Below the pieces are notes generated by a model, which saw only the letters and a list, made by a program, of their open reading frames with translations, made no database searches and was not told where the DNA came from. A program made the position numbers and the translations under genes. From NCBI RefSeq assembly GCF_001297705.1, contig NZ_LIRF01000006.1:191001-255000 (forward strand): a DNA stretch of 64,000 nt. The letters run 5' to 3'. The stretch's first letter is position 1. Every line of letters begins with the position of its first letter. The stretch comes from Chryseobacterium sp. ERMR1:04 (GTDB lineage Bacteria; Bacteroidota; Bacteroidia; Flavobacteriales; Weeksellaceae). Positions 47,385-64,000 of this stretch are shown piece after piece.

Positions 47385-47467
47385 AATTGAAATAAATATT
47401 TTAAAAAGCTCAAGCCAATTCAAAATGTATTATTAATACTATAAAATGATTCATTAAAAATTTGATA

Positions 47468-47791
47468 ATGAGAAAAGAGGAACTGTACGATTTAAAATAT
47501 ACTTTATCCGAAAGTATTTATCCAATGCTCAAAGCTTTTAAAGATAAATTAGATAAAAAGGAGATGCCAAGTTTGCCTAAATTCAAAGATGAAAGCTGTT
47601 TTGAAGATAAAAAGAGGACTGTGGATTTAATGTATAAGTTTTGGAGTGAAAGGCTCGAAGAAATGATTTTTCCTTTTGAATATTATTGTTACCCAGAGAA
47701 TTTTGAGAATATACGAATAGATGAAAGGAAAGAAAAAATCCAAAAAGGATTAGATGTTTTTGCAAAATATTTCAATGATTTATGGATTTGA
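47468..47791 (+). CDS. Hypothetical protein (107 aa)
   Basis: About 107 residues from the ATG at 47468 (a TTG two codons earlier opens the frame). It is strongly helical in pattern and charged (RKEELYDLKYTLSESIYPML; FWSERLEEMIFPFEYYCYP), without signal or membrane segment. It is 83 bp after the lipoprotein gene and convergent with the next gene. Small soluble proteins like this are frequent in immunity arrays, but nothing specific was recognised. Confidence 0.55.
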   Translation: MRKEELYDLKYTLSESIYPMLKAFKDKLDKKEMPSLPKFKDESCFEDKKRTVDLMYKFWSERLEEMIFPFEYYCYPENFENIRIDERKEKIQKGLDVFAKYFNDLWI

Positions 47792-47809
47792 TTTTCTGTA
47801 ATTTGGATT

Positions 47810-48667
47810 TTAATTAAATTGGTCATATAAATTCTCTTGGAACTTTAATAGATGATTTAATCCTTTAAAAGAGCTAAGATTCTGTTGATCTATTTCGTAA
47901 ACTATTTCTTGGGTCTTATCATTAATGAAAACTATTTTCTTTTCATAAGGCAGATCTTGATAACCCTCTAAAATGATTTCCCAATATGAATTTTTATCAT
48001 CAAAAACTCTTCTTATTTTTGTTGAAGGATAATTATATTTATCCGCAATTTGGGCTATTTGATAATAAGACATTCTATAAATTTTCTCATGATTTATATG
48101 TTTTAATATTTTGCCTGTTTCATCATAAATATACCAGTCTCCTGCAGGAAAACTTCCGTTCGAGTTGGAGTTATATTGTCTTACGATATGAATTTTTTTG
48201 GTAGGATAAAAATCAATGACTGTATGTATGGCTTGTTCAAAATATCCAGATTCAAAATATTTGTTCTCTCTTGGAACAAGGTTCTTGTCATCTAATTTCG
48301 TTACAATTTTTATAAGCTTGTCATTCTTAAACGTATATTTTTCAATGTAATATGGATCTTTTTGTAAGCTTATTTCTAGATCTTCTAAGTTGTTTTGAGG
48401 AAGGGACATAGAATATTTTCCTATTCTTTTTACATTCATTGCAATGTCTTCCTTTATGGAGTCATTTGGCTTACGGTAATGAATATTATTTATACTTATT
48501 TCAATAATATCATTTTTCATATCAACTAATTCAGATAATTGAGGGATTCTAATATTGTTTATATTGGGTATTTTAATTTTATTGTACTTTTTGAAGGCGG
48601 TTTCTTTTTTCTGTGCAATACAATTTGTAAGTATTAAAGAAAGTACAATTATTAATATTTTTCTCAT
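47810..48667 (-). CDS. Hypothetical lipoprotein (285 aa)
   Basis: A 285-residue protein with a lipoprotein signal (IIVLSLILTNCIAQ; Cys near 16). The mature part contains several strand-turn-strand segments (YFEQAIHTVIDFYPTKKIHI; FPAGDWYIYDETGKILKHIN) like those of the MORN/toxin-antitoxin YwqK-type repeats in Bacteroidota lipoproteins. That resemblance is weak. It is the only minus-strand gene in 41-50 kb. Confidence 0.62.
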   Translation of the reverse strand: MRKILIIVLSLILTNCIAQKKETAFKKYNKIKIPNINNIRIPQLSELVDMKNDIIEISINNIHYRKPNDSIKEDIAMNVKRIGKYSMSLPQNNLEDLEISLQKDPYYIEKYTFKNDKLIKIVTKLDDKNLVPRENKYFESGYFEQAIHTVIDFYPTKKIHIVRQYNSNSNGSFPAGDWYIYDETGKILKHINHEKIYRMSYYQIAQIADKYNYPSTKIRRVFDDKNSYWEIILEGYQDLPYEKKIVFINDKTQEIVYEIDQQNLSSFKGLNHLLKFQENLYDQFN

Positions 48668-49002
48668 TTTTTCTTATGATATTTTATGGCAAGAGAAATA
48701 TGAATTTTCTTTTGCAAATGTAAAATAATCCTTCAGTGAATATACATCACAATTTATGAATACAACAATTAGATAGTTATATATCATTCATGTTTCAATA
48801 CTAAAAATTAAAATTGTATCATTTTATGATACCTTGAAAAGATGAATTTGTCCTCTGGAAATAATACGATCAATTATTGGAATGATAATCATAGCTTTAA
48901 GTTTGTAATGTAATGAGAGTATAGCCGATATGTTCGTATCAGTATAGGAATAATTCATTTTTTAATTGTATTACTTTGTATTTTCATAATTTATTGATAA
49001 TA
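48668..49002. other. Intergenic region, nothing recognised
   Basis: AT-rich spacer upstream of the minus-strand lipoprotein gene and before a gene fragment. No ORF with protein-like content, RNA gene or clear hairpin was seen. Confidence 0.5.
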
Positions 49003-49190
49003 TTTGTTGGATATGATTTTAACGAGAATTTTTCAGATTTTTTTCGATGGAATAATGGAAAAGATGATGAACTAGAATGCAAAAGTAAATGCAAAATTGC
49101 ATTAGAATATTTCAAGACATGCTTTAGTAATTCTTTCAATGATATTATAATTGTTTCTTTGCTTTTTATTTTTGCAAAAATTATAAAATG
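49003..49190 (+). pseudogene. Fragment related to the 45826..46497 gene
   Basis: Encodes GYDFNENFSDFFRWNNGKDD ELECKSKCKIALEYFKTCFS and about 20 further residues (quoted in parts), matching residues about 28-90 of the 223-residue protein at over 80% identity. An internal deletion of about 11 codons is present. The start is missing and it stops at 49190, so it is a broken partial copy. Confidence 0.82.
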
Positions 49191-49222
49191 AAGTAATAAG
49201 AAGAGAAAAATAATAATGAACA

Positions 49223-50044
49223 ATGATAATTAATGAAATTTTAGAAATTCTTAGCTATACAAATTCAAATCATTCGGGAGTCCTTTTAAATAGCCTTTAT
49301 GATCAGTTCAGGGAAGGGAGAGATCCCAATGATATTTTAACACTATTAAATTCTGAGGATGAGCAAATAAGGTATTTTGGTTGTAGTATTGTGAATGAAA
49401 CAGTTATTAAAGATAAAAAGGCTCATCAAGCAATAATGGATAAACTCTATGATATCCTTAAGAATGATACAAGTAGTAATAATATGGTTAGAGCTTATCA
49501 TGCTTTATACGGGATGTATTGTGAAAATGATGATGAGAATGGATATATTTTGCTATGTGAAGAGATGATAAAACATCCAGTTAATGATATTAGAGATGGT
49601 GCAAAAGAATTTATTGAAAGAAATAAAAATAAGTCACAACCAGATATTATTTTTGAAATTTCAAAAATTTTAAGTTATAATAATAGGCATCATATAGATA
49701 TACTTTTGGATAATCTTTACTTCCAATTTGGATTTAGACGAGATCTAAATGATATTTTAATATTACTAAATTCTGATAATCAAAAAATGGTCGATTTTGG
49801 TTGTCATTTTGCAAATGCAGTTAATATTAAAGATAGAAACTTACTAGAAGAAATTATAGATAAGCTAAATGATATTCTAAAAAAAAGTAAAATTGTTTAC
49901 CAAAGAGAAAGATCTTTTGATGCCTTATGTAGATTTTACACGGAAGATAATGATGAATACAGACTTATACTGCTCTGTAAAGAATTGGAAAATGATGAGA
50001 ATGATAAAATCAGGAAATTTTCCAGAGAATTTATTAATCAATAA
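49223..50044 (+). CDS. HEAT-like repeat protein, internally duplicated
   Basis: A 273-residue soluble, helical protein. Two halves of about 135 residues are clearly homologous: INEILEILSYTNSNHSGVLL with DPNDILTLLNSEDEQIRYFG, and FEISKILSYNNRHHIDILLD with DLNDILILLNSDNQKMVDFG. Helix pairs and lengths fit HEAT/ARM-type repeats. The two halves are similar enough to show a tandem duplication within the gene. It may be a scaffold or an immunity-type protein of this accessory stretch. A hairpin with a T-run follows. Confidence 0.7.
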   Translation: MIINEILEILSYTNSNHSGVLLNSLYDQFREGRDPNDILTLLNSEDEQIRYFGCSIVNETVIKDKKAHQAIMDKLYDILKNDTSSNNMVRAYHALYGMYCENDDENGYILLCEEMIKHPVNDIRDGAKEFIERNKNKSQPDIIFEISKILSYNNRHHIDILLDNLYFQFGFRRDLNDILILLNSDNQKMVDFGCHFANAVNIKDRNLLEEIIDKLNDILKKSKIVYQRERSFDALCRFYTEDNDEYRLILLCKELENDENDKIRKFSREFINQ

Positions 50045-50204: not shown

Positions 50205-50594
50205 GGCTCAATCTCAAAACTTGGGGAGAAAATAGATAAATTTTTTGTTGTCTTTTATAAGTGGAACGGCTTTGTGAAGCTTAGACCAACTGGTTGTCAA
50301 AAAAACTTTGTGGGCTCTGTCTTCAAAGTATAATAGTTAAGCTGAGGTAAGTATTGTTGTCATTTGCTGAGTGGAACGCCATTGCAACCGAAAATAGTTG
50401 TAATGAGATGCAAAGCCTTAGCGATCGATAGCGTTAAAGAGAAAATAAAGAATTTTTTTAGTCTTGTTTTCTAATACTATGCTTAGATCCCTGCGGGGAT
50501 GACAAACTTTATGGATATAAATTTAATCGTCCCCCAAGTTTTGTCCTTGATCCATAATATATGTAAGTAAAGAATATAACAATAACACATAAAC

Positions 50595-50628
50595 AAAAAA
50601 CCTCACAACTTACGTTATGAGGTTTTTT
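50595..50628. terminator. Terminator of the left tRNA array
   Basis: An 11-bp stem AAAAAACCTCA/TGAGGTTTTTT, with T-runs in both reading directions. Located just past tRNA-Arg on the minus strand. Confidence 0.9.
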
Positions 50629-50632
50629 TAAG

Positions 50633-50706
50633 TGAGCGCGTCAGGATTCGAACCTGAGACCGTCTGCTTAGAAGGCAGATGCTCTATCCAGCTGAGCTAC
50701 GCACCC
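50633..50706 (-). tRNA. tRNA-Arg (anticodon TCT), copy 1
   Basis: A 74-nt cloverleaf on the minus strand. The acceptor GGGTGCG pairs with CGCGCTC, the anticodon loop CTTCTAA reads TCT, and the T arm contains TTCGAAT. No CCA is encoded. It decodes AGA. Confidence 0.95.
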
Positions 50707-50738
50707 ATTGAATAATTTTGATAAAACTATTAAAACAG

Positions 50739-50813
50739 TCGGGGCGGCAGGATTCGAACCTGCGACCTCCTGGTCCCAAACCAGGCGCGATGACCGGACT
50801 ACGCTACGCCCCG
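50739..50813 (-). tRNA. tRNA-Pro (anticodon TGG), copy 1
   Basis: A 75-nt cloverleaf on the minus strand. The acceptor CGGGGCG pairs with CGCCCCG, the anticodon loop TTTGGGA reads TGG, and the T loop is TTCGAAT. It is transcribed before tRNA-Arg in the same array. Confidence 0.95.
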
Positions 50814-50860
50814 ATTAGGTCATCTAAAAACAGTGTATATTACCTTGTTTTTTGTGAATG

Positions 50861-50868
50861 CAAAGATA
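50861..50868 (-). promoter_or_regulatory. -7 promoter element of the left tRNA array
   Basis: TATCTTTG on the minus strand, 48 bp upstream of tRNA-Pro. The same element in the same context precedes the right array (63066-63073), strong support for a real TAnnTTTG promoter. Confidence 0.7.
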
Positions 50869-51260
50869 GGATACTTTTTTAAATAAAAAAATAAAAAAAC
50901 TCACAATTTCTTGAGAGGCTTTGTGACAATGATATGATCATTTTCGAGCACTTTTTAACTAAAAACCCTCTGCTCAAAGAAGCATCATTGGGGAGCATCA
51001 AGAGCCCATTGAGTGACCCCCTCTTTCTTTTTGGCAAACATGTGCATATTCTAATAATAGCGGCATATTGCTGAAATAAGTGTAGATAGCCGTTAATGAA
51101 AATCCAACAATAGATGCGAACAACAACCAACAATACGAGGGCCTTCTACATTTAAGAAATAATTATGAACGGATAATATATACAATAATAATTTCTCATT
51201 TGGTAATGGATATTTGATTTGGTTGTTCTAATTTTTTTAGAATAATTATAAATAAAGAGA

Positions 51261-51268
51261 TAAATTTG
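51261..51268 (+). promoter_or_regulatory. Candidate -7 element of the pyrimidine operon
   Basis: TAAATTTG, about 110 bp upstream of the mmsA reading frame. No clear -33 partner was seen; tentative. Confidence 0.3.
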
Positions 51269-51377
51269 GATAAGACTAATATTATTGATAATTTGCTTAT
51301 CGTTAAAAATTATTACAAAATTATTAAAGAATATGGTTAAATATTGAAAAGTTAATAATTATATTAACGGAAGTCCT

Positions 51378-52793
51378 GTGGCTACGGTTACTGACAGATG
51401 GTTGAATGTAGAATCTCCACTCACAGGAGAAATAATTGCGGAAGTCGCAGTTTCCTCAAAAGAAGATTTGGATAAAGCAGTCGCTGCAGCAAAATCAGCT
51501 TTCGAAGTTTGGTCAAAAACCCCGATAAAAGAGAGGGTTCAGATTTTCTTTCGATATAAAACTTTACTTGAGGAAAATATGCAACAACTTGCCGAACTGG
51601 TTCAGGAAGAAAACGGGAAAACTTTTGATGAAGCCAAAGCTGAAGTCGAAAAAAGTATAGAGCTTACTGAATTTGCAACCTCGCTTTCGCAGCTTATACA
51701 AGGAGAAATTATGGAAGTAAGCCGTGGTGTGGAATGCAGAACTGAAAAAGTTGCCTTGGGAGTTGTTGCTTCCATTGTCCCGTTTAATTTTCCGTCAATG
51801 GTTCCGAATTGGACAATTCCCAATGCAATTACTTTAGGAAATTGTATGATCCTTAAAACTTCGGAACTCGTTCCTCTCAGTGCTATGAAGATTGCTGAGC
51901 TTCTAAAAAAAGCAGGACTTCCTGATGGAGTTCTCAATATTATTCACGGTGAAAAAGAAATTGTAGAAGCCATTTGCGATCACCCCGATATCGAAGCGGT
52001 TTCTTTCGTAGGTTCTACAAAAGTGGCAAAAATTGTTTATCAGAGAGCTACCGCCAACCTCAAAAGATGTTTGGCTTTAGGTGGAGCAAAAAACCACTTG
52101 TTGGTTTTACCTGATGCAAACCCTGAAATGACGGCATCGAATGTTACAGCTTCCATGTCCGGGTGTGCAGGTCAGCGCTGTATGGCTGCTTCCACAATGG
52201 TTGCAGTAGGACAAACTGATCATATCATCGAAAAAATGGTAGAAGAAGCCAAAAAAGTGATCCCTGGGAAAAATCTGGGCTCAGTAATTTCCAAGGCTGC
52301 TAAAGAAAGAATTGAAGGATACATTGATCAGGCTGAAAAAGATGGAGCAAGAATCCTTCTGGATGGAAGAAATTGTAAAGTAGAAGGAAAAGAAAACGGA
52401 TATTACGTTGGTCTTACCATTATTGATTTTGTAACACAGGAAATGTCTGTTGCAAAAGAAGAAATCTTCGGTCCGGTAGTTTCCATTATAAGAAGTAGAA
52501 CGTTACATGATGCGATCAAAATTGAAAATGCAAACCCTTACGGAAATGCAGCTTCTGTATTCACACAAAGCGGAGGTTTGGCAAGATATGTCATGGAGCA
52601 CGCTTCCGCAGGAATGATTGGAGTAAATATAGGAGTTCCTGTTCCAAGAGAACCTTTTTCTTTTGGTGGCTGGAATGAATCAAGATTCGGAGTAGGAGAT
52701 ATTACCGGTAAAAGTTCTATTGAATTTTGGACTAAATTGAAAAAAATGACTACCAAATGGAGCCCGGAGGCAGGAATTAACTGGATGAGTTAA
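51378..52793 (+). CDS. mmsA: CoA-acylating (methyl)malonate-semialdehyde dehydrogenase
   Basis: A 471-residue ALDH-superfamily protein. It shows VPFNFPSMVPNWTIPNAITL, the catalytic Cys in SGCAGQRCMAAS and EEIFGPVVSI. MmsA converts malonic or methylmalonic semialdehyde to acetyl- or propionyl-CoA, the last step after beta-alanine transamination. The only usable start is the GTG at 51378, yet the 15 codons before it in frame continue the family N-terminus (NNYINGSPV) back to a TGA at 51345. The original start therefore seems lost, perhaps by a one-base change in an A-run. The missing 10-15 residues may or may not matter. Confidence 0.88.
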   Translation: MATVTDRWLNVESPLTGEIIAEVAVSSKEDLDKAVAAAKSAFEVWSKTPIKERVQIFFRYKTLLEENMQQLAELVQEENGKTFDEAKAEVEKSIELTEFATSLSQLIQGEIMEVSRGVECRTEKVALGVVASIVPFNFPSMVPNWTIPNAITLGNCMILKTSELVPLSAMKIAELLKKAGLPDGVLNIIHGEKEIVEAICDHPDIEAVSFVGSTKVAKIVYQRATANLKRCLALGGAKNHLLVLPDANPEMTASNVTASMSGCAGQRCMAASTMVAVGQTDHIIEKMVEEAKKVIPGKNLGSVISKAAKERIEGYIDQAEKDGARILLDGRNCKVEGKENGYYVGLTIIDFVTQEMSVAKEEIFGPVVSIIRSRTLHDAIKIENANPYGNAASVFTQSGGLARYVMEHASAGMIGVNIGVPVPREPFSFGGWNESRFGVGDITGKSSIEFWTKLKKMTTKWSPEAGINWMS

Positions 52794-53019
52794 AATTTTA
52801 AAATATATGACCGAAGTGAATAAGTTGGAATTTGAAAAATCATTACAATTAAAAAAATGAATTTGAAAATTGTTTGAAAAGAAGCTGTTTTTTTAACCCC
52901 ATACTTTAGCCCTTATTTCCGAGTATATTTCAAACAAAAAATAGAGAGAGTCTTAAATATTGACCATAAATTCACTATAAAAATCTTTTATAAATAATAA
53001 CATAAATTTTTAAATAAAG

Positions 53020-54369
53020 ATGTCAGAAACATTAGGAAATAAAATCAACAGGCAGGAAGTAATAGATAATGCCCTCAATCATACAATTATGTCGTGGTCT
53101 AAACAGAAAGGGATTGAACCATTTGCGATAGAACGCGCAGAAGGAGTTTATTTATATGATTTTAACGGGCAGAAAATTATCGATTTTTCTTCCGGTCTGA
53201 TGAATTCCAATATCGGCTACGGTAATCAGCGTGTTACAGATGCGGTGGTAAAGCAAATGCAGCAGGTTGCCTTCATTTCTCCCGCTTGTGTTTCTAAGGT
53301 TCGTGGAGATTTGGGAAAAAAATTAGCAGAGATATGTCCTGGAGATTTAAATCGTGCTTTCTTCACACTTTGCGGTGCAAGTGCTATTGAAAATGCTGTT
53401 AAATTAGCAAGGCTTTATACAGGACGTCACAAAATTTTCACGAGATATCAATCCTATCACAGTGCAACGATCGGAGCTATTTCTGCAGGAGGAGATCCTA
53501 GAAAATTTCCGGTAGATTCTCAGCAGGCGCCAAATTTTATTCATTTTGACCTTCCGGTTGCCTATCGTTATGAATACGGTGAAGAAAATCTTTTGAAAGA
53601 TTCTATTGCTGCTTTGGAAAGGCAGATCGAATATGAAGGTCCTAATAATATTGCAGCCATCCTTTTAGAAGGCGAATCAGGAACTTCCGGTTGTTTACAA
53701 TACCCAAAAGGTTATCTCAAAGAAGTACGAAAAATTTGTGACAAATATGGGATTTTATTGATTATGGATGAAGTAATGTCTGGTTTCGGAAGGACGGGAA
53801 AATGGTTTGGTTTTCAGAATCATGATATTATTCCCGATATGATCTGCATGGCAAAAGGTCTTACCTGTGGATATCTTCCTTTGGGATGTGTGATGGTTTC
53901 CGAAAAAATTGCGCAAAAATACGATGATACTGTTTTACCATTAGGTTTAACGTATTCAGCTCACTCAGTTTGCTGTTCCGCTGCTTTGGAAGTTTTGAAA
54001 ATTTATGAAGAAGATCATCTGATTGAACGTGCTTCAGAAATGGGAAAATATATAGAAGAAAAAATCGAAGAAATGAAAGCTATCCATCCTTCGATCGGAG
54101 AATTCCGGAATACAGGATTATTAGGTTGCCTTGAATTGGTGAAAAATAGAAAAACCAAGGAACCGATGGCTCCTTTCAATGCGAAACCTGAAGAAATGGT
54201 AGTCATGAATCAGGTGGCAGCAAAAATAAAAGAACTTGGAATGTACACATTTGTAAGATGGGGATACATTTTCATTGCACCGCCACTCACGATTACAAAA
54301 GAAGAAGTGCAAGAAGGTTTAGCGATCATTTCCGAAGCATTGAAGATTGCAGATCAAGCAGTTATTTAA
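53020..54369 (+). CDS. Class III aminotransferase (beta-alanine transaminase type)
   Basis: A 449-residue PLP enzyme. The cofactor-binding features are the GASAIENAVKLAR segment, LIMDEVMSGFGRTG with the ring-binding Asp, and the Schiff-base Lys279 in CMAKGLTCGYLPLG. In this operon it most likely moves the amino group of beta-alanine (from uracil) or 3-aminoisobutyrate (from thymine) to pyruvate or 2-oxoglutarate, giving the semialdehyde used by MmsA. Substrate is inferred from neighbours; the sequence only proves the aminotransferase class. Confidence 0.9.
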   Translation: MSETLGNKINRQEVIDNALNHTIMSWSKQKGIEPFAIERAEGVYLYDFNGQKIIDFSSGLMNSNIGYGNQRVTDAVVKQMQQVAFISPACVSKVRGDLGKKLAEICPGDLNRAFFTLCGASAIENAVKLARLYTGRHKIFTRYQSYHSATIGAISAGGDPRKFPVDSQQAPNFIHFDLPVAYRYEYGEENLLKDSIAALERQIEYEGPNNIAAILLEGESGTSGCLQYPKGYLKEVRKICDKYGILLIMDEVMSGFGRTGKWFGFQNHDIIPDMICMAKGLTCGYLPLGCVMVSEKIAQKYDDTVLPLGLTYSAHSVCCSAALEVLKIYEEDHLIERASEMGKYIEEKIEEMKAIHPSIGEFRNTGLLGCLELVKNRKTKEPMAPFNAKPEEMVVMNQVAAKIKELGMYTFVRWGYIFIAPPLTITKEEVQEGLAIISEALKIADQAVI

Positions 54370-54370
54370 T

Positions 54371-54634
54371 CTGAGAATAGATTTTGAAACCATTGACTGG
54401 TCAGAAGCGCCTAAAAGTAGAATGTCCGGAGAAATAGACAAGGCTTATTGGTAAACCAGACAATATGATGGTATAAGAGTGAGGATTCTTGGATATTCTA
54501 AAAAGTATTAGCCTATCAATGATCTTAGAAAGGACATATTGTACTTTTTACACGGAGAGCTTACAAGTGAAGAAAAGAATGGAATAAAACGAATGATCAT
54601 AGATGATAATTTTTTAAAACAAGTTAAAAAATAA
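54371..54634 (+). pseudogene. Decayed DHCW-motif cupin gene
   Basis: One frame runs from 54371 to a TAA at 54632-54634, broken by stops at 54452 and 54509. Ignoring these it reads IDFETIDWSEAPKSRMSGEI then DKAYW/TRQYDGIRVRILGYS and DILYFLHGELTSEEKNG, recognisably the small DHCW-motif cupin family. The region holding the DHCW motif itself is scrambled and there is no start codon. It sits between the aminotransferase and transporter genes, so it was probably once an operon member. Confidence 0.72.
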
Positions 54635-54637
54635 AAT

Positions 54638-56204
54638 ATGGATGAAAAGTTAAATCTGGAAACCTCCTCCCTTTATAATGAAGATCTTGCTCCAGTTCCT
54701 CAACAGAAAAGAACATGGGGAACTTGGAATTTTGCTTCATTGTGGATCAGTATGTCAATGTGTATTCCGACATATATGCTTGCAAGTTCTTTAATAGAAG
54801 GAGGAATGAACTGGTGGCAATCTGTTCTTACCATTTTTTTGGGAAACCTGATTGTGCTGATTCCAATGATTCTGAATGGGCATGCAGGAACAAAATACGG
54901 GATTCCGTTTCCGGTTTTGGCAAGAGCAAGTTTTGGAACATCAGGAGCGAATATTCCTGCTTTATTACGGGCTATTGTAGCCTGTGGCTGGTTTGGGATT
55001 CAAGCTTGGATTGGCGGTGTTTCTCTTTATCAGATATTGAGAGTCTGGATTCCTTCACTTCCGGAACCGTTAATTACAGGATTTTTCCCACCATTTCCAG
55101 AAATGCTTTGCTTTGTAATTTTTCTGCTTCTTAATATGGTTGTAGTATATTTTGGGGTAGAAAGTATCAGGAAGCTTTTGGTTTTCAAAGCCATATTTTT
55201 ACCGGCTGCTGCGTTTGCATTATTGTTTTGGGCTATTTATTCTACAAAAGGATTAGGTGAAATTCTTAATCAACCCTCAAAATTCCAATCATCTCCAGAA
55301 TTCTGGAAATTCTTTTTTCCGGCTCTTACAGGAATGGTAGGATTTTGGGCTACATTATCGCTCAATATTCCGGATTTTACGAGATATGCTAAATCGCAAA
55401 ATGAACAGATAAAAGGGCAAATGATTGGCTTACCACCATCAATGGCTGTTTTCTCCTTTATTGGGGTTGTAGTAACATCGGCGACTACCATTATTACGGA
55501 TATGCTAAATCGCAAATGAACAGATAAAAGGGCAAATGATTGGCTTACCACCATCAATGGCTGTTTTCTCCTTTATTGGGGTTGTAGTAACATCGGCGAC
55601 TACCATTATTTACGGAACTACCATTTGGGATCCGGTAATTCTTGCTGGAAAATTTGAAAATAAGATTATTGTTACATTGGCAATGCTTGCCATTGCAATT
55701 TCTACATTAGCAACTAACATTGCCGCTAACATTGTAAGCCCTGCAAACGATTTTGCCAATCTTAATCCGAAAAAAATAAGCTTCAGGACAGGAGGTTATA
55801 TAACAGGAATTATAGGGTTTTTAATCTGCCCTTGGAAACTGATTGCCGATCCGTCCGGTTATATTTTCACTTGGCTGGTCGGATATTCAGGTCTGCTGGG
55901 ACCGATCGGTGGAATCATGATTTGTGATTATTTCTTGATCAGAAAAAAAGAACTGATTTTGGAAGATTTATATAACGAAAATAAAAGTTATTCCTATAAA
56001 AATGGTTTTAATGCTAAAGCAATTGTTTCATTAATTCTTGGGATTCTGCCAAACATCCCTGGTTTTCTAGTAACAATAAAAGTGATTCCCAAAACTTCCG
56101 TTCCGGAATGGCTTACCAATCTTTATCATTATGGTTGGTTTGTAGGATTTTTTATCAGTGCTATTGTGTATTACATCATAATGAAAAACAGAAAACCAAG
56201 TTAA
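54638..56204 (+). pseudogene. NCS1-family nucleobase/hydantoin transporter, frameshifted by a tandem duplication
   Basis: The first part (54638-55519) holds the N-terminal half of an NCS1 permease: WASFNFASLWI-like opening (TWGTWNFASLWISMSMCIPT), VLARASFGTSGANIPALLRA and GIQAWIGG. The second part (from about 55499 in another frame, ORF 55536-56204) holds the rest, ending in membrane helices. Removing the roughly 115-bp extra copy of 55383-55495 gives one continuous frame of about 483 codons, the normal length. Intact, it would import uracil, thymine or a hydantoin. As read, it is broken; an assembly error is possible. Confidence 0.85.
55383..55610 (+). repeat. Tandem duplication of about 113 bp inside the transporter gene
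   Basis: Copy 1 is 55383-55495 and copy 2 is 55499-55610. They are identical except for one A missing in copy 2 (CGCAAAATG versus CGCAAATG). Net extra length is 115 bp, which is not a multiple of three. Confidence 0.95.
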
Positions 56205-56234
56205 TTTATAATTCAACATTCACAATTATCAGAT

Positions 56235-57617
56235 ATGAGCATTTTAATTAAAAACGGAAATATCGTTACAGCTTCGGAAAATTTTGTAGGAGATATTTTT
56301 ATCGAAAACGAAACCATTTCTGCGATCGGAAGAAATTTAAATTTTCAGGCAGATGAAATCATTGATGCTTCCGGAAAACTGATTTTCCCTGGCGGAATAG
56401 ACCCTCATGTCCATCTGGAGATGCCTTTTATGGGAACATTTTCCAGCGATACTTACGAAACGGGAACCCGTGCTGCGCTTTTCGGCGGAACAACGGTGGT
56501 GATTGATTTTATTCTACAGGTTCAGGGAAAATCTCTCCGTTCTGCTTTAGAAGAATGGAAAGGAAGAAGCAATGGAAATGCAGTTGGAGATTACAGTTTT
56601 CACATGGCTGTTACTGATTTTAATGAAAATACAAAACCTGAGATCCGTGAAATGATTGAAGAGGAGGGAATTACCTCTTTCAAAACTTTTATGGCTTACA
56701 AAGGAGCATTGATGATCGATGACCATCAAATGGTGGGATTGATGGAAGAAGTGAAAAAACATGGCGGGATGATCAATGTTCATGCAACCAATGGGGATAT
56801 GATCAATTATCTCGTTCAGAAAAACAGAAGCAAGGGAAACAGGGCTCCAATTTACCATTACCTTTCACAGCCGGAAGTAACGGAAGCAGAAGCAAGCGAA
56901 CGATTTGTAGATATGACCAATTTTACAGGTTGCCCCGGTTATATCGTTCATCTCACTTGTGAAGGTGCTTTGAAAGCCGTTAGAAATGCAACCAAAAGAA
57001 ACCAGCATGTTTTTGTTGAAACCTGTATTCAGTATCTTATTTTGGATGCTTCACTTTACGAAAAGGATTTTGAAGGCGCAAAATGGGTTATGTCACCGCC
57101 TTTGCGTGAAAAGAAAGATCAGGAAACACTGTGGGCCGGAATTAACCAAGGATTGGTAAATGTGGTGGCAACAGACCATTGTCCGTTTATGTGGGAGCAA
57201 AAATTAATGGGAAAAGACGATTTTTCTAAAATCCCGAATGGGCATCCTGCTGTTGAAAATCGGATGGAGCTTCTTTATTCCGAAGGGGTGGATAAAGGAA
57301 GGATTACATTGAATAGATTTGTGGAAGTCGCCTGTACAAATCCTGCGAAAATTTTCGGAATGTTTCCTAAGAAAGGAACTATTTCAGTGGGTTCTGATGC
57401 AGATTTGGTGATTTTTGATCCTAATAAAAAGCATACACTTTCTACAAAAACACACCACATGAATGTAGATTATAGCGGCTATGAAGGTTGGGAAGTCACA
57501 GGAAAAGTAATGACCGTCCTTCTTCGTGGAAAAGTGGTGATTAATAACAATGAATGTCTTGTAGAAAAAGGCTATGGACAATTCATAAAACGAAATAAGG
57601 TTACAGATAAAATCTAA
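56235..57617 (+). CDS. hydA: Dihydropyrimidinase
   Basis: A 460-residue cyclic amidohydrolase. The binuclear metal site is visible: HVHLE with His58 and His60, Lys150 in SFKTFMAYKG (the carbamylated lysine), histidines in NVHATNGD and YIVHLT, and Asp in ATDHCPF. Enzymes of this family open dihydrouracil or dihydrothymine to the N-carbamoyl beta-amino acid, and many also open 5-substituted hydantoins. Position next to the PreTA and ureidopropionase genes fixes the pathway role. Confidence 0.93.
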   Translation: MSILIKNGNIVTASENFVGDIFIENETISAIGRNLNFQADEIIDASGKLIFPGGIDPHVHLEMPFMGTFSSDTYETGTRAALFGGTTVVIDFILQVQGKSLRSALEEWKGRSNGNAVGDYSFHMAVTDFNENTKPEIREMIEEEGITSFKTFMAYKGALMIDDHQMVGLMEEVKKHGGMINVHATNGDMINYLVQKNRSKGNRAPIYHYLSQPEVTEAEASERFVDMTNFTGCPGYIVHLTCEGALKAVRNATKRNQHVFVETCIQYLILDASLYEKDFEGAKWVMSPPLREKKDQETLWAGINQGLVNVVATDHCPFMWEQKLMGKDDFSKIPNGHPAVENRMELLYSEGVDKGRITLNRFVEVACTNPAKIFGMFPKKGTISVGSDADLVIFDPNKKHTLSTKTHHMNVDYSGYEGWEVTGKVMTVLLRGKVVINNNECLVEKGYGQFIKRNKVTDKI

Positions 57618-57644
57618 ATCAATTAATAATTTAAAATTGAATAC

Positions 57645-58511
57645 ATGTCTCGAATCATAAAATCTGGATTGATACAAATGTCTCTCGCCAAAACAGAAGG
57701 AGAGGGGAATATTGATGAAATCAAACAGGCAATGCTGGAAAAACATCTTCCTTATATTGATGAAGCTGGAAAACAAGGTGTACAGATCCTTTGTTTTCAG
57801 GAAATATTCAATACGCCGTATTTCTGCCCTGGTCAGGATTCCAAATGGTATGAATCTGCGGAAACAGTTCCTGGTCCGACTACGGATCTTATGTCGGAAT
57901 ATGCTAAAAAATATCAAATGGTAATCATCGTCCCTATTTATGAGAAAGATGGAGCAGGGATTTTATATAATACCGCTGCTGTAATAGATGCAGACGGAAA
58001 ATATCTAGGAAAATACCGTAAAAATCATATTCCACAGACAGGGGGATTTTGGGAAAAATACTTTTTTAAGCCTGGAAATATGGGGTATCCGGTTTTTCAG
58101 ACCCGATATGCAAAAGTAGGTATTTATATCTGTTACGACAGGCATTTTCCGGAAGGAGCCAGAGCTTTGGGAGTTAATGGGGCTGAAATCGTATATAATC
58201 CATCTGCGACTACAGTCGGACAATCTCAATATTTATGGAAACTGGAACAGCCGGCTCATGCCGTGGCGAATGGATATTTTATGGGATGTATTAATCGGGT
58301 GGGGATAGAAAAGCCATGGAATCTTGGAGAGTTTTATGGAACTTCCTATTTCGTTAATCCTCTTGGAGAAATTTTCGCCTGTGCTTCCGAAGATAAAGAC
58401 GAACTTTTAATTGCAGAATTTGATTTGGATATGATAGATCAGGTACGTTCTAAATGGCAATTTTATCGGGACAGAAGGCCGGAAACCTATGAAGATTTAA
58501 CAAAACTTTAA
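57645..58511 (+). CDS. Beta-ureidopropionase, nitrilase superfamily
   Basis: A 288-residue carbon-nitrogen hydrolase with the full Glu-Lys-Cys set: Glu53 in CFQEIFNTPYF, Lys126 in YRKNHIP, Cys163 in GIYICYDRHFPEG. The motif NTPYFCPGQD and the sequence after Cys163 fit the N-carbamoyl-beta-alanine amidohydrolase / N-carbamoylputrescine amidase branch. Following dihydropyrimidinase, it should split N-carbamoyl-beta-alanine to beta-alanine, CO2 and ammonia. It starts 27 bp after the hydA stop. Confidence 0.88.
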   Translation: MSRIIKSGLIQMSLAKTEGEGNIDEIKQAMLEKHLPYIDEAGKQGVQILCFQEIFNTPYFCPGQDSKWYESAETVPGPTTDLMSEYAKKYQMVIIVPIYEKDGAGILYNTAAVIDADGKYLGKYRKNHIPQTGGFWEKYFFKPGNMGYPVFQTRYAKVGIYICYDRHFPEGARALGVNGAEIVYNPSATTVGQSQYLWKLEQPAHAVANGYFMGCINRVGIEKPWNLGEFYGTSYFVNPLGEIFACASEDKDELLIAEFDLDMIDQVRSKWQFYRDRRPETYEDLTKL

Positions 58512-58598
58512 TAATGTATGTTGAATATTAAAATTTCACAGCATTTAATGCAAACATAAATTTAAAATTCAACATTCAAAATATAAAATAGAATAAAT

Positions 58599-59936
58599 AT
58601 GATCGTCAATAACCGTCTTACCTTTGAACAATATCAGGAAAATTTTGCAGATATTCATCCGCCTTTCGAAAATCGTGAAGGAGCAGTGATAGAAGCAAAC
58701 CGTTGCATTATGTGCTACGATGCCCCTTGTATAAAGATGTGCCCTACTCATATCAACATTCCGAAATTCATCAAGCAGATTGCTACAGAGAATCTGAAAG
58801 GTTCGGCGAAAACTATTTTTACAGATAATATTATGGGAGCAAGTTGTTCTAAAGTTTGCCCTGTAGAAATACTTTGTGAAGGATCATGTGTTTATAATCT
58901 GCTTCATGAAGAGCCCATCCAGATTGCACGCTTACAAAGATATTCTACAGAAAAAGCAATGGAAAACAATTGGCAGCTTTTCGAAAAAAAGACCTCTGTC
59001 GGAAAAAAAGTTGCGGTGGTAGGAGCAGGCCCAGCCGGGCTTTCCTGTGCTTTTAATCTTGCAAAAGAAGGTGTAGAGGTTACCATTTTTGAGAAAGAAA
59101 CAAAAGGAGGTGGATTGATGACTTACGGAATTGCAGCTTATAAAGTGACCCCTGAGTTTTGTGAAGAAGAGGTGAAATATATTACTTCAATTGGCGGAAT
59201 TGATATCAAATACAACCAGGAGCTCGGGAAAGATTTCCAGTTGAAGGATCTGCAGACAAATTATGATGCAGTATTCCTCGGAATCGGAGTAGGTATTGCA
59301 AGGCAGTTGGATATTAATGGGGAAAATTCGGGAGGAGTTGAAGATGCAATTTCTTATATCCACCATCTTAGAACCAATGATTTTTCAAATATTCCTGTTG
59401 GTGAGAGAGTAGCGGTTATCGGTCTTGGAATGACGGCAATAGATGCGGCAACTCAGACGAAAAGACTTGGAGCAAAACAAGTAACCATAGTTTACAGAAG
59501 AACTGAAAATGAAAAACCATGCACGGACGTTGAATTGAATATCGCCAAATTAGACGGATGTAATCTGGAATATCTTGCTGCTCCGAAAGAGATTATTTCT
59601 GAAAACGGCAATGTAAAAACTTTGATCTGTAGACGTATGAAATTAGGTGAAGCTGATGCTTCGGGAAGAAGAAGTCCGGTTGATACAGGAGAAACCTTTG
59701 AAATAGATTGTGATATGATCATAAAAGCGGCAGGACAAACCCCATTTGAAGATTTAATTTCGAATTTCGAATTACAAAATTCATCTGGAAAAGTTTCTGT
59801 AAATTCTGATTATGAAACCAATTGGAAAGGAGTGTTTGCAGGAGGCGATTGTATCAATGGTGGAAAAGAAGTGGTAAATGCAGCACAAGACGGAAAACTC
59901 GCAGCTCGTTCTATTTTAGAATATATCCTAAATTGA
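58599..59936 (+). CDS. preT: Dihydropyrimidine dehydrogenase, NAD(P)-oxidoreductase subunit PreT
   Basis: A 445-residue flavoprotein of the glutamate-synthase small-subunit type. The N-terminal iron-sulfur domain has CIMCYDAPCIKMCPTHINIP and CSKVCPVEILCEGSC. A FAD motif follows (VAVVGAGPAGLSCAFNLAKE), then a nucleotide motif VIGLGMTAIDAAT and the final FAD segment GVFAGGDCINGG. It passes electrons from NAD(P)H through flavin and clusters to PreA. Gene order preT-preA matches that of Escherichia coli. Confidence 0.92.
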   Translation: MIVNNRLTFEQYQENFADIHPPFENREGAVIEANRCIMCYDAPCIKMCPTHINIPKFIKQIATENLKGSAKTIFTDNIMGASCSKVCPVEILCEGSCVYNLLHEEPIQIARLQRYSTEKAMENNWQLFEKKTSVGKKVAVVGAGPAGLSCAFNLAKEGVEVTIFEKETKGGGLMTYGIAAYKVTPEFCEEEVKYITSIGGIDIKYNQELGKDFQLKDLQTNYDAVFLGIGVGIARQLDINGENSGGVEDAISYIHHLRTNDFSNIPVGERVAVIGLGMTAIDAATQTKRLGAKQVTIVYRRTENEKPCTDVELNIAKLDGCNLEYLAAPKEIISENGNVKTLICRRMKLGEADASGRRSPVDTGETFEIDCDMIIKAAGQTPFEDLISNFELQNSSGKVSVNSDYETNWKGVFAGGDCINGGKEVVNAAQDGKLAARSILEYILN

Positions 59937-59972
59937 AAAATAATTCAAAATCTATAAATTAAAATTCAAAAA

Positions 59973-61241
59973 ATGGCAGATATATCTTGTAATTTTTTAG
60001 GCATAAAATCTCCAAATCCTTTTTGGCTGGCTTCTGCTCCGCCAACGGATAAAAAAATAAATGTAATGCGTGCTTTCGAGGCAGGCTGGGGTGGTGTTGT
60101 TTGGAAAACCCTCGGTTCGCAGGTAAAGAATGTTTCTTCCCGGTATTCTGCGATCAATTTCAATGGGCAGCGTATCGCAGGTTTCAATAATATAGAATTG
60201 ATTTCCGACCGTCCTTTAGAAATTAATCTTCGGGAAATTGAAGAAGTGATAAAAGAATTTCCGGATAGGGCAATGATTATTTCTCTTATGGCAGATAATA
60301 CCAGAGAAGCATGGCACGACATGGTAAAACGTTGTGAACAAACCGGAGCTCATGGTTTTGAACTTAATTTCGGCTGTCCGCATGGAATGACGGAAAGAGG
60401 AATGGGAGCTGCAGTGGGACAAGACCCGGAAATTGCAGGTATGATCGTGGAGTGGGTGATGGAAGTTGCCACTTTGCCGGTCATTACAAAACTTACCCCA
60501 AATGTTCACTCTGTCGTTCCTACAGGAAAAGCAGCGGTAAATGCTGGATCAAACGCATTATCATTAATTAATACCATTCAGTCTGTCACGGGAATTGATC
60601 TGGATAGTTTTGTCCCGAATCCGAATGTTGGTGGGAAATCTGTTTTTGGAGGGTATTGCGGACCTGCTGTTAAACCAATTGCCTTGAAAATGCTTACGAA
60701 CATTGCAAAAGATCCAATCACTTCCAGAGTTCCGATTTCTGGAAGTGGCGGAGTTTCGACTTGGCAGGACGCTGTGGAATTTATGTTGCTGGGTTCAACT
60801 TCCGTTCAGGTTTGCACGGCTGCGATGAAATATGGTTTCCGGATAATTGAAGATTTAAATGAAGGTCTTAACAACTGGATGGATGAAAAAGGTTTTGAAA
60901 AAATTACTGATTTTATCGGAAAATCTGTTCCTGCCATTACAGAATGGGAAGAGCTTGATCTTAACTTTCACATTGTTGCCAACATTGATCAAGATAAATG
61001 CATTCATTGTGGATTGTGCCACATCGTCTGTGAAGATACTTCACACCAGGCAATTTTCAAAGCAGATGGAATGCCGTATAATACTTATACGATTAATGAG
61101 CCGGAATGTGTAGGCTGTAACCTATGCAAATTAGTTTGCCCGGTAGACAATTGTATTTCAATGGTAGAAAAACGGGTTGCTCCGGATTATCTCAACTGGA
61201 CCAAATTTCAGGAGCTCGGACTTCCGTTAAACGATCATTAA
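59973..61241 (+). CDS. preA: Dihydropyrimidine dehydrogenase, catalytic subunit PreA
   Basis: A 422-residue protein. The FMN-binding TIM barrel, of the dihydroorotate-dehydrogenase type, occupies about 1-320 (NPFWLASAPPTD, GFELNFGCPHGMTERGMGAA with the active Cys region, SGSGGVSTWQDA). The C-terminal ferredoxin domain has two 4Fe-4S motifs, CIHCGLCHIVCED and CVGCNLCKLVCPVDNC. It reduces the 5,6 double bond of uracil and thymine. Length is typical. The preT partner is 36 bp upstream. Confidence 0.93.
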   Translation: MADISCNFLGIKSPNPFWLASAPPTDKKINVMRAFEAGWGGVVWKTLGSQVKNVSSRYSAINFNGQRIAGFNNIELISDRPLEINLREIEEVIKEFPDRAMIISLMADNTREAWHDMVKRCEQTGAHGFELNFGCPHGMTERGMGAAVGQDPEIAGMIVEWVMEVATLPVITKLTPNVHSVVPTGKAAVNAGSNALSLINTIQSVTGIDLDSFVPNPNVGGKSVFGGYCGPAVKPIALKMLTNIAKDPITSRVPISGSGGVSTWQDAVEFMLLGSTSVQVCTAAMKYGFRIIEDLNEGLNNWMDEKGFEKITDFIGKSVPAITEWEELDLNFHIVANIDQDKCIHCGLCHIVCEDTSHQAIFKADGMPYNTYTINEPECVGCNLCKLVCPVDNCISMVEKRVAPDYLNWTKFQELGLPLNDH

Positions 61242-61273
61242 TTTTAAAATCTATTAATCTCTTAATTAAATAA

Positions 61274-62512
61274 ATGAATATCAATTCTGCACGCCTGGAA
61301 AATTTCTTTACCGAAATGAGTACAATTGGTAAGATCGGTGAAACCGGAACCAACAGACCCGCTCATTCTTCTGAAGAAAAGAAAGCATTTGAACTGGCTT
61401 CCTCGTGGATGAAACAGGCAGGAATGACAACAAAAATTGACAATTTCGGTAATCTTATCGGTAAATTAGAGGGTAAAAACCCTGATTTACCTGTTCTGGT
61501 GGTGGGCTCACATCTGGATTCTCAACCTTACGGAGGAAGATATGACGGAGTTGCGGGTGTTTTATGTGCTATTGAGGCAGCTATTACAATGCACGAAAAT
61601 GGAATACAACCGGAACGCTCTTTGGAGATTATTTCCTTTGCAGATGAAGAAGGCTGGCGTTTCAATAAAGGATTATTTGGTTCTCGCGGAATTTTGGGAC
61701 GATTGGAAGAAAAAGAATTGCAGCGTGCCGATGCCAACGGAATTACAAGAGAACAGGCTCTGAAGGAATTTGGCTGTGATGTTACAAAATTTAAAGAATC
61801 CGAGTATAAGAATGGCAGTATTTACTGTTATCTGGAACTGCATATAGAACAAGGTCCGGTCTTGGACGTCGGAAATAAACCCATAGCTGTGGTATCTGGG
61901 ATTTCAGGACCGATTTGGCTTACTGTGAAACTGAAAGGTATGGCGGGACACGCTGGTTCTGTTCCGATGCCGATGCGTAAAGATGCTTTAGTAGGTGCTT
62001 CAGAAATTATTGTTGCCCTAAACAAAATTGCAAATCAGGTTCCGGGAAATCCGACCGTTGGAACATGCGGAACAATTAAAGTTTTTCCGGCTTCCCGAAA
62101 CATCATTCCGGAAGAAGTGGAATTTACTCTTGATTTAAGGGATATCGATCTAGAAAGAAGAAACCGTTATGAAAAGCAATTGATGAATGCAATAGATGAA
62201 GTAGCTCAAAAGCATGGCCTTTCGTATGAGATTTCTGAAGACTGGAAAAGTGAACCGCGATATTGTGCAGATTGGATTAAAAACATTATAAGAAACAATT
62301 GTGAAAGAATCGGGTTGAATGATGTCCCTGAATTGATGAGCGGACCATTTCACGATGCAATGGCCATTTCTTATGCCTGCGACTACGGGATGATATTTGT
62401 ACGGTGTAAAGACGGGATTTCGCACAACCCTCTGGAGTTTTCTTCTCCCGAAGATCTGGCTTTAGGCGCAGAAGTTTTATATGGAACAATACTGGATATT
62501 CTGGATAAATAA
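61274..62512 (+). CDS. M20-family N-carbamoyl amino acid hydrolase / allantoate amidohydrolase-like
   Basis: A 412-residue metallo-hydrolase. Binuclear metal ligands are in VGSHLDSQPYGGRYDG (His, Asp), FADEEGWRFNKGLFGSRGI (Glu-Glu), LHIEQGPVLD (His) and the late SGPFHDAM (His). The dimerisation insert contains KGMAGHAGSVPMPMRKD. The family includes L-carbamoylases, allantoate amidohydrolases and bacterial beta-ureidopropionases. In this operon it is a second candidate for N-carbamoyl-beta-alanine or N-carbamoyl-3-aminoisobutyrate hydrolysis, beside the nitrilase-fold enzyme. It ends the operon; a bidirectional terminator follows. Confidence 0.88.
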   Translation: MNINSARLENFFTEMSTIGKIGETGTNRPAHSSEEKKAFELASSWMKQAGMTTKIDNFGNLIGKLEGKNPDLPVLVVGSHLDSQPYGGRYDGVAGVLCAIEAAITMHENGIQPERSLEIISFADEEGWRFNKGLFGSRGILGRLEEKELQRADANGITREQALKEFGCDVTKFKESEYKNGSIYCYLELHIEQGPVLDVGNKPIAVVSGISGPIWLTVKLKGMAGHAGSVPMPMRKDALVGASEIIVALNKIANQVPGNPTVGTCGTIKVFPASRNIIPEEVEFTLDLRDIDLERRNRYEKQLMNAIDEVAQKHGLSYEISEDWKSEPRYCADWIKNIIRNNCERIGLNDVPELMSGPFHDAMAISYACDYGMIFVRCKDGISHNPLEFSSPEDLALGAEVLYGTILDILDK

Positions 62513-62576
62513 TGATAATTTCTTATTTGGTTATCTTGTAAAGAATATAACAATAACACATGAATTAAATATAAAC

Positions 62577-62610
62577 AAAAAACCTCACAACTTACGTTAT
62601 GAGGTTTTTT
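62577..62610. terminator. Bidirectional terminator between the pyrimidine operon and right tRNA array
   Basis: Same 11-bp hairpin as at 50595-50628. T-runs on both sides let it end the plus-strand operon and the minus-strand tRNA transcript. Confidence 0.9.
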
Positions 62611-62613
62611 AAG

Positions 62614-62687
62614 TGAGCGCGTCAGGATTCGAACCTGAGACCGTCTGCTTAGAAGGCAGATGCTCTATCCAGCTGAGCTACGCACCC
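62614..62687 (-). tRNA. tRNA-Arg (anticodon TCT), copy 2
   Basis: Identical in sequence to the copy at 50633-50706; the cloverleaf and TCT anticodon are intact. Confidence 0.95.
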
Positions 62688-62719
62688 ATTAAATAATTTT
62701 GAGAAAACTATTAAAACAG

Positions 62720-62794
62720 TCGGGGCGGCAGGATTCGAACCTGCGACCTCCTGGTCCCAAACCAGGCGCGATGACCGGACTACGCTACGCCCCG
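62720..62794 (-). tRNA. tRNA-Pro (anticodon TGG), copy 2
   Basis: Identical to the copy at 50739-50813; TGG anticodon. Confidence 0.95.
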
Positions 62795-62837
62795 ATTAGG
62801 TCATCTAAAAAAAACAATGTGTATTACTTTGTTTTTG

Positions 62838-62911
62838 TGAGCGCGTCAGGATTCGAACCTGAGACCGTCTGCTTAGAAGGCAGATGCTCTATCCAGCTGA
62901 GCTACGCACCC
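62838..62911 (-). tRNA. tRNA-Arg (anticodon TCT), copy 3
   Basis: Third identical Arg copy. It lies about 150 bp upstream (in transcription) of copy 2, in the same array. Confidence 0.95.
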
Positions 62912-62943
62912 ATTAAATAATTTTGAGAAAACTATTAAAACAG

Positions 62944-63018
62944 TCGGGGCGGCAGGATTCGAACCTGCGACCTCCTGGTCCCAAACCAGGCGCGATGACC
63001 GGACTACGCTACGCCCCG
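62944..63018 (-). tRNA. tRNA-Pro (anticodon TGG), copy 3
   Basis: Third identical Pro copy and the first gene of the right array transcript. Confidence 0.95.
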
Positions 63019-63362
63019 ATTAAGTCATCTAAAACAATGCATATTGCCTTGTTTTTTTGTGGGTGCAAAGATAGGATACTTTTTTAAATAAAAAAACAAA
63101 AAGCTAAATAGTTTTTAATGGTTTTTTTTAATTAAATAAATGGTAAGGTTACTCGTTTAGTAACCATTGAGTTAACATAATTTGTAGTGTGGGAAAATAA
63201 TGATGATTTTTTACACTTTTATTTTTCCTTTGATGATATAGGAGGATGTTGGGAAAGAATTTAGAAAAAAAGAGATTGTAAAATTTCAGTGTAAATAAAA
63301 TGAAAAAAGCATGACTTTATTGTTTTTTGATGCTAAAATGTAAGTGAGGAGAGGGATGAAAA
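63019..63362. other. Intergenic region holding the right array promoter
   Basis: Apart from the array promoter at 63066-63073 the stretch is AT-rich and shows no ORF with protein-like content. It separates the tRNA array from the serine hydrolase terminator. Confidence 0.5.
63066..63073 (-). promoter_or_regulatory. -7 promoter element of the right tRNA array
   Basis: TATCTTTG on the minus strand, 48 bp upstream of the first tRNA, conserved with the left array in position and flanks. Confidence 0.7.
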
Positions 63363-63418: not shown

Positions 63419-64000
63419 TTATTGAACTGTGGAGTTTTTTACTTTTTGTAAATCTAAATCCTGAAAATCGAAGCTGAAATCAATATCCGGAGAGATGCCT
63501 TTCATTTTTATACGTTGCGCCTTGCCCTCTTCATCTAAACTAAAGATAGCAAAGGCATCACAATTCATATCCTTGTACTCCCATTTAATGGCAAAAGTAT
63601 TTGCTTTGTAAAAGCTCATAGGTCCATTGAGCTTGGGTGAACGATATGATTTAAACCATAATTGATTTCCTTTTAAGAAAACTTCAACTTTTCCAAACCA
63701 CTTATCTTCATACAGCCCGATCAAATCTTCATTTTTTAAGGTGGTATTTTTTGCTTTGCTTACAGTTTCCCAAACTTTTTGAGTGACTTCATCTCCAGAT
63801 TTTTTTTGTGATTGAAAATGAGAGGCATACTTATCTACCCATCCAAAATCATTCAGTCCTAAATAACTGTCAATAATGGTTTGGCTTACCGATGAGAAAA
63901 CACCAGCACCTCCATTTTCTGTATTGGTTAAAATAACGATACCTAAATTTAAATCTGGGATCATAGTCACAATTGAAAGCATTCCTGGTAGTCCACCAGT
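63419..64000 (-). CDS. Serine hydrolase (class C beta-lactamase-like), C-terminal part
   Basis: The last 193 residues are visible; the gene continues beyond base 64000. The visible start reads TGGLPGMLSIVTMIPDLNLG, matching the HTGG-like third motif of the beta-lactamase/penicillin-binding-protein class C fold (its His is outside the window), then VILTNTENGG. A C-terminal DUF3471-type domain follows (LKNEDLIGLYEDKWFGKVEV ... FSLDEEGKAQRIKMKGISPD). Such proteins are usually secreted esterases or peptidases of unknown substrate, not antibiotic-resistance enzymes. Confidence 0.82.
   Translation of the reverse strand, partial: TGGLPGMLSIVTMIPDLNLGIVILTNTENGGAGVFSSVSQTIIDSYLGLNDFGWVDKYASHFQSQKKSGDEVTQKVWETVSKAKNTTLKNEDLIGLYEDKWFGKVEVFLKGNQLWFKSYRSPKLNGPMSFYKANTFAIKWEYKDMNCDAFAIFSLDEEGKAQRIKMKGISPDIDFSFDFQDLDLQKVKNSTVQ

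Follow-up and report, generated by a model that had tools for sequence, protein, structure and literature searches.

A predicted pyrimidine-degradation operon between repeated tRNA-Arg/tRNA-Pro units at a probable gene-turnover hotspot of Chryseobacterium

A 64,000-nt stretch of the Chryseobacterium sp. ERMR1:04 genome (contig NZ_LIRF01000006.1, positions 191,001 to 255,000; hereafter the window) carries a predicted operon for pyrimidine degradation that is bordered on each side by tRNA-Arg/tRNA-Pro gene pairs, here called arrays. ARAGORN found exactly six tRNA genes in the window. They form three minus-strand Arg(tct)/Pro(tgg) pairs, located at 50632-50813 (unit A1), 62613-62794 (unit A2) and 62837-63018 (unit A3). 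A search of the genome located a fourth pair (A4) outside the window, at C6:256379-256560, about 1.4 kb past its edge; behind it lie a tRNA-Ser(GCT) gene, an amidase gene and a gene for a fumarase/aspartase-family lyase, which we take to be aspA. The order along the locus is about 5.6 kb of small genes, A1, the pyrimidine operon, A2-A3, a serine-hydrolase gene and the Ser-bearing A4 (Table 1).

The tRNA genes are letter-identical across A1-A4, and the three pairs lie where a preliminary description of the window, made from its letters, had placed them. The full identity it ascribed to the units did not hold, since the units as a whole differ: 258 of 267 positions (96.6%) are identical between A1 and A2, 261 of 274 between A1 and A3, and 220 of 231 between A2 and A3, with a longest identical run of 108 nt for A1-A2 and 186 nt for A2-A3. 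The repeat is 224 nt long and occurs three times, the reference copy being matched at 92 and 94% identity by the other two, at spacings of 11,981 nt (rather than the 11,971 bp first given) and 224 nt. A terminator-side flank is common to A1, A2 and A4 and a promoter-side flank to A1 and A3, the terminator and promoter of A1 having been assigned by eye. This sharing points to three units, of which the middle one holds a tandem pair, A2-A3, with the terminator side retained by A2 and the promoter side by A3. The operon, which had been described as all that lies between the arrays, fills most of the 12 kb; about 300 bp (about 50900-51230) have homology to neither array nor operon.

The enzyme content supports the prediction of a reductive pyrimidine-degradation operon, in agreement with the uracil/thymine catabolic role first proposed. 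PreA, dihydropyrimidinase and a candidate beta-ureidopropionase all score above the cut-offs of their NCBIfam models (NF006183, TIGR02033 and TIGR01879), and the PreT-like and nitrilase-like proteins score below theirs; the former is named PreT-like because it adjoins PreA. Known PreTA/PydA operons likewise have PreA, dihydropyrimidinase, amidohydrolase, semialdehyde dehydrogenase and NCS1 permease genes in one direction, and the enzymes predicted here show no notable difference from theirs, whereas the permease gene is broken in this genome. The duplication that breaks it includes 97 identical nt at 55399-55495 and 55514-55610, and may be a true mutation or an assembly error; in the related loci L033-L035, described below, the duplicated segment is single (overlapping subject ranges).

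Table 1. Features of the locus in window coordinates
Feature	Position	Strand	Remarks
Left anchor: PrmA-like methyltransferase (42662-43504) and SH3-domain protein (43497-44369)	42662-44369	+	PF06325, E 2.1e-48; PF08239, E 1.1e-6
Left cargo: small, mostly hypothetical genes	44414-50044		Clusters c22, c23 and c24 lie across the array in some relatives
Array unit A1	50570-50897	-	Terminator, tRNA-Arg(TCT) 50632-50706, tRNA-Pro(TGG) 50738-50813, promoter-side flank
Stretch between A1 and operon homology	50900-51230		Matches neither array unit nor operon
Methylmalonate/malonate-semialdehyde dehydrogenase (CoA-acylating)	51378-52793	+	TIGR01722, 543 bits (cut-off 448.5)
Class III aminotransferase, likely beta-alanine aminotransferase	53020-54369	+	NF004718, 482 bits (cut-off 472); substrate inferred from operon
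NCS1 nucleobase permease, two frames (54638-55519, 55536-56204)	54638-56204	+	Split by imperfect tandem duplication of ~115 bp
Dihydropyrimidinase	56235-57617	+	TIGR02033, 597 bits (cut-off 393)
Carbon-nitrogen hydrolase, candidate beta-ureidopropionase	57645-58511	+	Best family TIGR03381, below cut-off
PreT-like NAD(P)H-binding subunit of dihydropyrimidine dehydrogenase	58599-59936	+	NF009410/TIGR01316 relatives, below cut-offs
PreA, dihydropyrimidine dehydrogenase subunit	59973-61241	+	NF006183, 649 bits (cut-off 335)
Hydantoinase/carbamoylase-family amidase, second candidate beta-ureidopropionase	61274-62512	+	TIGR01879, 450 bits (cut-off 204); role inferred
Array unit A2	62541-62821	-	Terminator side, tRNA-Arg 62613-62687, tRNA-Pro 62719-62794
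Array unit A3, tandem with A2	62822-63102	-	tRNA-Arg 62837-62911, tRNA-Pro 62943-63018, promoter-side flank
PF00144 beta-lactamase-family serine hydrolase gene, part	63419-64000	-	Right cargo; the gene extends beyond the window in a different frame

Repeated arrays are common in the genus. Of 173 genus genomes, 103 have at least two exact Arg-Pro pairs, 53 have one and 17 have none, a tally that is an undercount because variants are missed (G002, G010, G013 and G019, for example, have none or one exact pair and at least two strong BLAST places). By BLAST, at least two strong array places were found in 21 of 23 same-genus relatives among the matches listed; in the same matches, G021 had a single place, and G018 a single place with further partial pieces where contigs end. 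Contigs ending in arrays were seen in G089 and G076. In 25 stretches the arrays are between 0.94 kb (G074) and 23.6 kb apart, and longer distances of about 58, 153, 166 and 169 kb were found in G009, G047, G048 and G075. Genes other than the operon lie between the arrays in the stretches read, and the proposal that the operon is joined to the array duplication was therefore not borne out.

The content between the arrays varies and the right border is fixed. In the 25 stretches, the amidase cluster lies to the right of the Ser array in all 25 and aspA in 23, and to the left of the first array, within the flanks fetched, the PrmA cluster was found in 11 and the SH3 cluster in 13. Between the arrays there are 164 open reading frames (ORFs), 71 of them in one genome only, and 77 of the 102 clusters between arrays occur in one genome only, counted at this locus alone. 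Eleven clusters, the recombinase cluster among them, differ in place among genomes: some genomes have them to the left of the first array, other genomes between two arrays. Clusters c10 and c12 occur on either side of an array in three or four genomes each. In G075, molybdenum-cofactor and molybdopterin-oxidoreductase genes lie within about 14 kb of the first array, so that metabolic modules as cargo are not special to the ERMR1:04 genome. Since repeated units with differing genes between them are found in most of the sampled relatives, the tRNA copies appear to mark an old gene-swapping site, and a tRNA gene on each side of the operon need not mean one insertion event.

The nearest of 20 relatives compared over the 3 kb right of tRNA-Ser are G089 (88.9% identity) and G074 (88.8%); the next reaches 81.4%. 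Between its arrays, G074 has 0.9 kb and G089 has six other genes over 11 kb, and neither genome has PreA. ERMR1:04 has three units with four pairs and G074 has two units. In the comparison with 14 kb of G074, the only homology found on the left side of the right anchor consists of the array units (~300 bp) and a terminator match of 32 nt, and the terminator shared by A1, A2 and A4 was not seen in G074's two arrays or in the one complete array of G089. We considered G089 as a single-array strain free of the operon, which was ruled out: its contig ends inside a second array, with the 11 kb of other genes between.

These comparisons support the operon being accessory, as had been supposed. At E<=1e-100, PreA was found in one of 173 genus genomes and in four of 320 family genomes, and G074 and G089 carry other DNA at the locus. 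The other three PreA-bearing family genomes belong to one sister genus; each has one strong Arg-Pro place, an Arg-Pro-Ser array, on a contig other than that of PreA, and no tRNA gene was found in the 21 kb around PreA in L033 and L034 or in the 4.3 kb of the third (L136). The operon genes keep their order in L033-L035, where individual DNA blocks are about 76-83% identical, and the homology spans the window from 51230-51306 to 62490-62525. In a PreA tree of 18 rows (17 of 80 loci fetched), the window protein groups with L033-L035 at 100/99, and inside this group only L033 plus L034 is resolved. Given its presence in one of 173 genus and four of 320 family genomes, gain of the operon in this lineage is the simplest reading of the distribution. 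Identity to the sister genus at fourfold sites was 0.28-0.48 for the operon, 0.41-0.47 for gyrB, 0.55-0.59 for rpoB and 0.28 for aspA; recent transfer from the sister genus was dropped because the divergence resembles that of gyrB, so that no recent transfer from the sampled donors is shown. The operon has a GC content of 0.385 versus 0.329 for window positions 1-50000, and GC at third codon positions in 25 long open stretches of that part (0.17-0.38) spans the operon's 0.29-0.35. Composition was set aside as evidence on account of this overlap.

Recombinase genes adjoin the arrays in a number of relatives. Serine-recombinase-like ORFs of 390-587 aa lie to the left of the array and point toward it in G094, G020, G050, G073, G048 and G075; the likeness was judged by eye (one ORF is split into 371 and 150 aa), and the protein that was scanned, that of G094, has resolvase, recombinase and zinc-ribbon domains. 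Recombinase ORFs also lie beside arrays in G113, G009 and G108. Large serine recombinases of the mobile type thus adjoin the tRNA-Arg 3' end of arrays, which argues for the arrays as integration targets; the arrays are probable targets of this kind, and they are also long direct repeats. Relatives of the G094 recombinase occur at E<=1e-60 in 105 of 173 genus genomes, and among the matches listed 14 places are at least 91% identical to it, 11 of them covered by the script. Six of the 14 share the orientation of an array 459-480 bp away, three lie between arrays, one is 140 kb away, one is on a contig with no exact array and three have no listed array place. More distant relatives among the same matches lie about 0.5 kb or less from arrays in G047, G012, G112 and G021, with many others elsewhere.

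A 2.3-kb recombinase module is 95.4% identical between G094 and G020, and the other shared blocks are 69-84% identical. The block shared by G094 and G020 starts, by eye, beside a tRNA-T-loop-like motif; mapping the left end of the module by this motif was dropped, as no chromosomal tRNA fragment was found there. No conjugation genes were found among ten ORFs sampled from the long intervals of G075 and G050. In an IMG/VR contig (L176, 10343-11897), the tyrosine integrase of a prophage stops 84 bp short of the tRNA-Arg in an Arg-Pro-Ser array, so that phages elsewhere may also target this tRNA. Apart from this contig, with its array beside a prophage, the array as plasmid or phage cargo was dropped, the matches listed giving partial tRNA similarity only and no single place covering 80% of the query. 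In ERMR1:04 itself, the two types of recombinase tried by tblastn, a serine recombinase and a tyrosine integrase with one query each, gave no match with an E-value under 0.11 across the window and the 7.5 kb that follow it (L009), and the genome's one relative of the G094 recombinase lies outside both. The earlier statement that no integrase is present thus holds for these two queries on the window, yet recombinases adjoin the same arrays in relatives.

Within genomes, the array copies resemble each other in sequence. In 30 genomes, spacer similarity of Ser to non-Ser copies was 0.594 within a genome and 0.337 between genomes (permutation p 0.0002), and left-flank similarity was 0.267 within and 0.166 between (p 0.002); G089 and G076, with one complete array each, were left out of these tests. 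A T-arm variant of tRNA-Arg was found in 15 of 70 copies, comprising all copies in five genomes and mixed in two, versus 11.3 mixed genomes expected, and none of 10,000 shuffles gave so low a number. This coupling, together with the unit that ERMR1:04 has in excess of G074, makes recombination between arrays credible and suggests, at the level of sequence comparison, that the arrays recombine with each other. Loss of the operon through crossover between A1 and A2 is predicted. In G101 the arrays (L145, L146) are opposite in orientation and about 86 kb apart, which would allow inversion instead of deletion, and the copies of G063 are also opposite.

The locus is probably one species' state of a genus-wide gene-turnover hotspot in which whole tRNA transcription units act as boundaries, with the operon as cargo beside an extra array copy. 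Duplication of the array would then be older than the operon. Two processes may feed the hotspot: insertion of recombinase-bearing elements at the tRNA-Arg 3' part, and homologous recombination among the array copies, through which the intervening segments would be added, removed and re-sorted. The operon itself may have entered with no recombinase of its own, most simply by crossover between the chromosomal array and array-bearing DNA; this is the least certain step, and we favor it since no recombinase or element end was seen and an extra unit borders the operon. The same crossover would leave the additional array A2-A3; run backward, it would remove the operon, with one complete array staying in place. 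Several points weigh against this hotspot reading. The operon's fourfold divergence from the sister-genus copies is about that of gyrB, and an old presence of the operon with many losses could also underlie its distribution. The p-values for coupling come from genome-level shuffles that take no account of the tree. Only in 11 of 30 genomes for the spacer and 4 of 30 for the left flank does the paralogue from the same genome match as well as, or better than, the best orthologous Ser copy, so that homogenisation is at best partial. The cargo ORFs were called with a crude ORF finder (>=90 aa), the diversity counts come from this one locus, and the side-switching of the 11 clusters can equally reflect gain and loss of array copies rather than movement of genes.

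Among the alternatives, a decayed integrative element is possible: a recombinase targeting the 3' part of tRNA-Arg would have brought the operon and its gene been lost later, the arrays serving as target only. The recombinase ORFs against arrays in nine relatives (G094, G020, G050, G048, G075, G073, G113, G009 and G108) and the prophage integrase beside the Arg gene of the IMG/VR contig are consistent with this, as are the ~300 bp without assignment left of the operon and an imperfect 30-nt direct repeat near both operon ends, outside the tRNAs (51178-51207 and 62505-62534). The best 19-mer of the repeat matches at 17 of 19 positions, a level reached in 5 of 2000 shuffles and by none of up to 2000 real pairs drawn at random (those less than 400 bp apart skipped) for a repeat picked after being seen; it has no good match in L033-L035 (19/30 at most). 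What argues the other way is the empty result of the two recombinase queries, the left flanks of A1, A2 and A4, which by eye resemble the right arrays of G006, G043, G046, G077, G096 and G110 and not the end of a recombinase element, and the finding of no further array-unit match between A1 and A2 at E<=0.001, a search that could miss short fragments. Slightly less probable, we think, is that whole tRNA units serve as portable homology borders, each cargo segment traveling with one Arg-Pro unit and crossing over at any resident unit in the manner of an integrase-free cassette array. If so, insertion would add a unit, loss would remove one, and the tRNA supply would never be broken.

The interpretation given in the preliminary description, by which a single array was duplicated on arrival of the operon and the array pair is the footprint of one event, seems unlikely to us. 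It would account for the one unit more than in G074, which is the one bordering the operon, and for the terminator that sets A1, A2 and A4 apart from the arrays of G074 and G089, but arrays in two or more copies without the operon are common in the genus, which contradicts its strict form, and operon carriers in the sister genus have one strong array match each. Still less probable is old inheritance, in which the ancestor of both genera had the operon and, within the genus, it was kept here only. The gyrB-like divergence fits such a history, as does the window PreA not being nested inside the sister-genus pair (an open fork), but it requires loss in 172 of 173 sampled genus genomes plus placement in a hotspot, and the operon is absent from the stretches read of G074 and G089 and PreA from either genome. 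We give hardly any credence to an assembly artefact in which repeats joined unrelated contigs: two genes in the region look frame-broken and arrays end contigs in relatives (G089), but the four copies have distinct flanks, a single 341-kb contig spans the entire stretch, and single-contig genomes, G020 and G045 for example, also show two arrays enclosing variable cargo.

Hotspots of horizontal gene transfer between conserved core genes are described as having a fixed flanking gene and fast turnover of content, often with no integrase; double homologous recombination at the flanking core genes has been proposed for them, and many bacterial hotspots lack integrases, their mode of turnover being unsettled (PMC5635113). 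The fixed flanking gene and fast turnover are features of both, whereas here repeated whole tRNA transcription units bound the cargo segments, so that homology is found inside the hotspot as well as at its ends. Integrative and conjugative elements that target tRNA genes are described in this bacterial group; one of them, ICECspPOL2 of Chryseobacterium, is integrated at the 3' end of tRNA-Glu and has an 18-bp direct repeat, an integrase and conjugation genes (PMC8694125). In contrast, what repeats here is a full ~300-bp unit in which both tRNAs are intact, and the 12-kb segment yielded no recognisable mobility gene. A tRNA-Arg, which may or may not be that of this array, is marked in a genomic-island figure for C. 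indologenes (PMC12382657). No description of a hotspot partitioned by repeated whole tRNA units was found in the titles and abstracts of the open-licence literature searched. The fixed right border, the repeated intact tRNA units and the 173 genus genomes make the homologous-recombination route directly testable.

With regard to the remaining parts of the locus, the stretch between A1 and the operon has no second copy in the genome except for a 36-nt match, and its ORF has no Pfam match; a transposase remnant at this place was dropped on these grounds. A cluster of 90-99-aa proteins occurs near arrays in G046, G006, G043, G022, G077, G110 and G103 (L117, L121, L129, L123, L132, L152 and L157). 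One of its nine proteins was scanned and gave a GIY-YIG match; a homing-type role is only a thought. The serine-hydrolase gene of the right cargo is common to ERMR1:04 and G046. It lies in two overlapping frames in this genome (window 63419-64000 and L009 753-1499), with the PF00144 match on its outer part beyond the window (L009), and is one 522-aa frame in G046.

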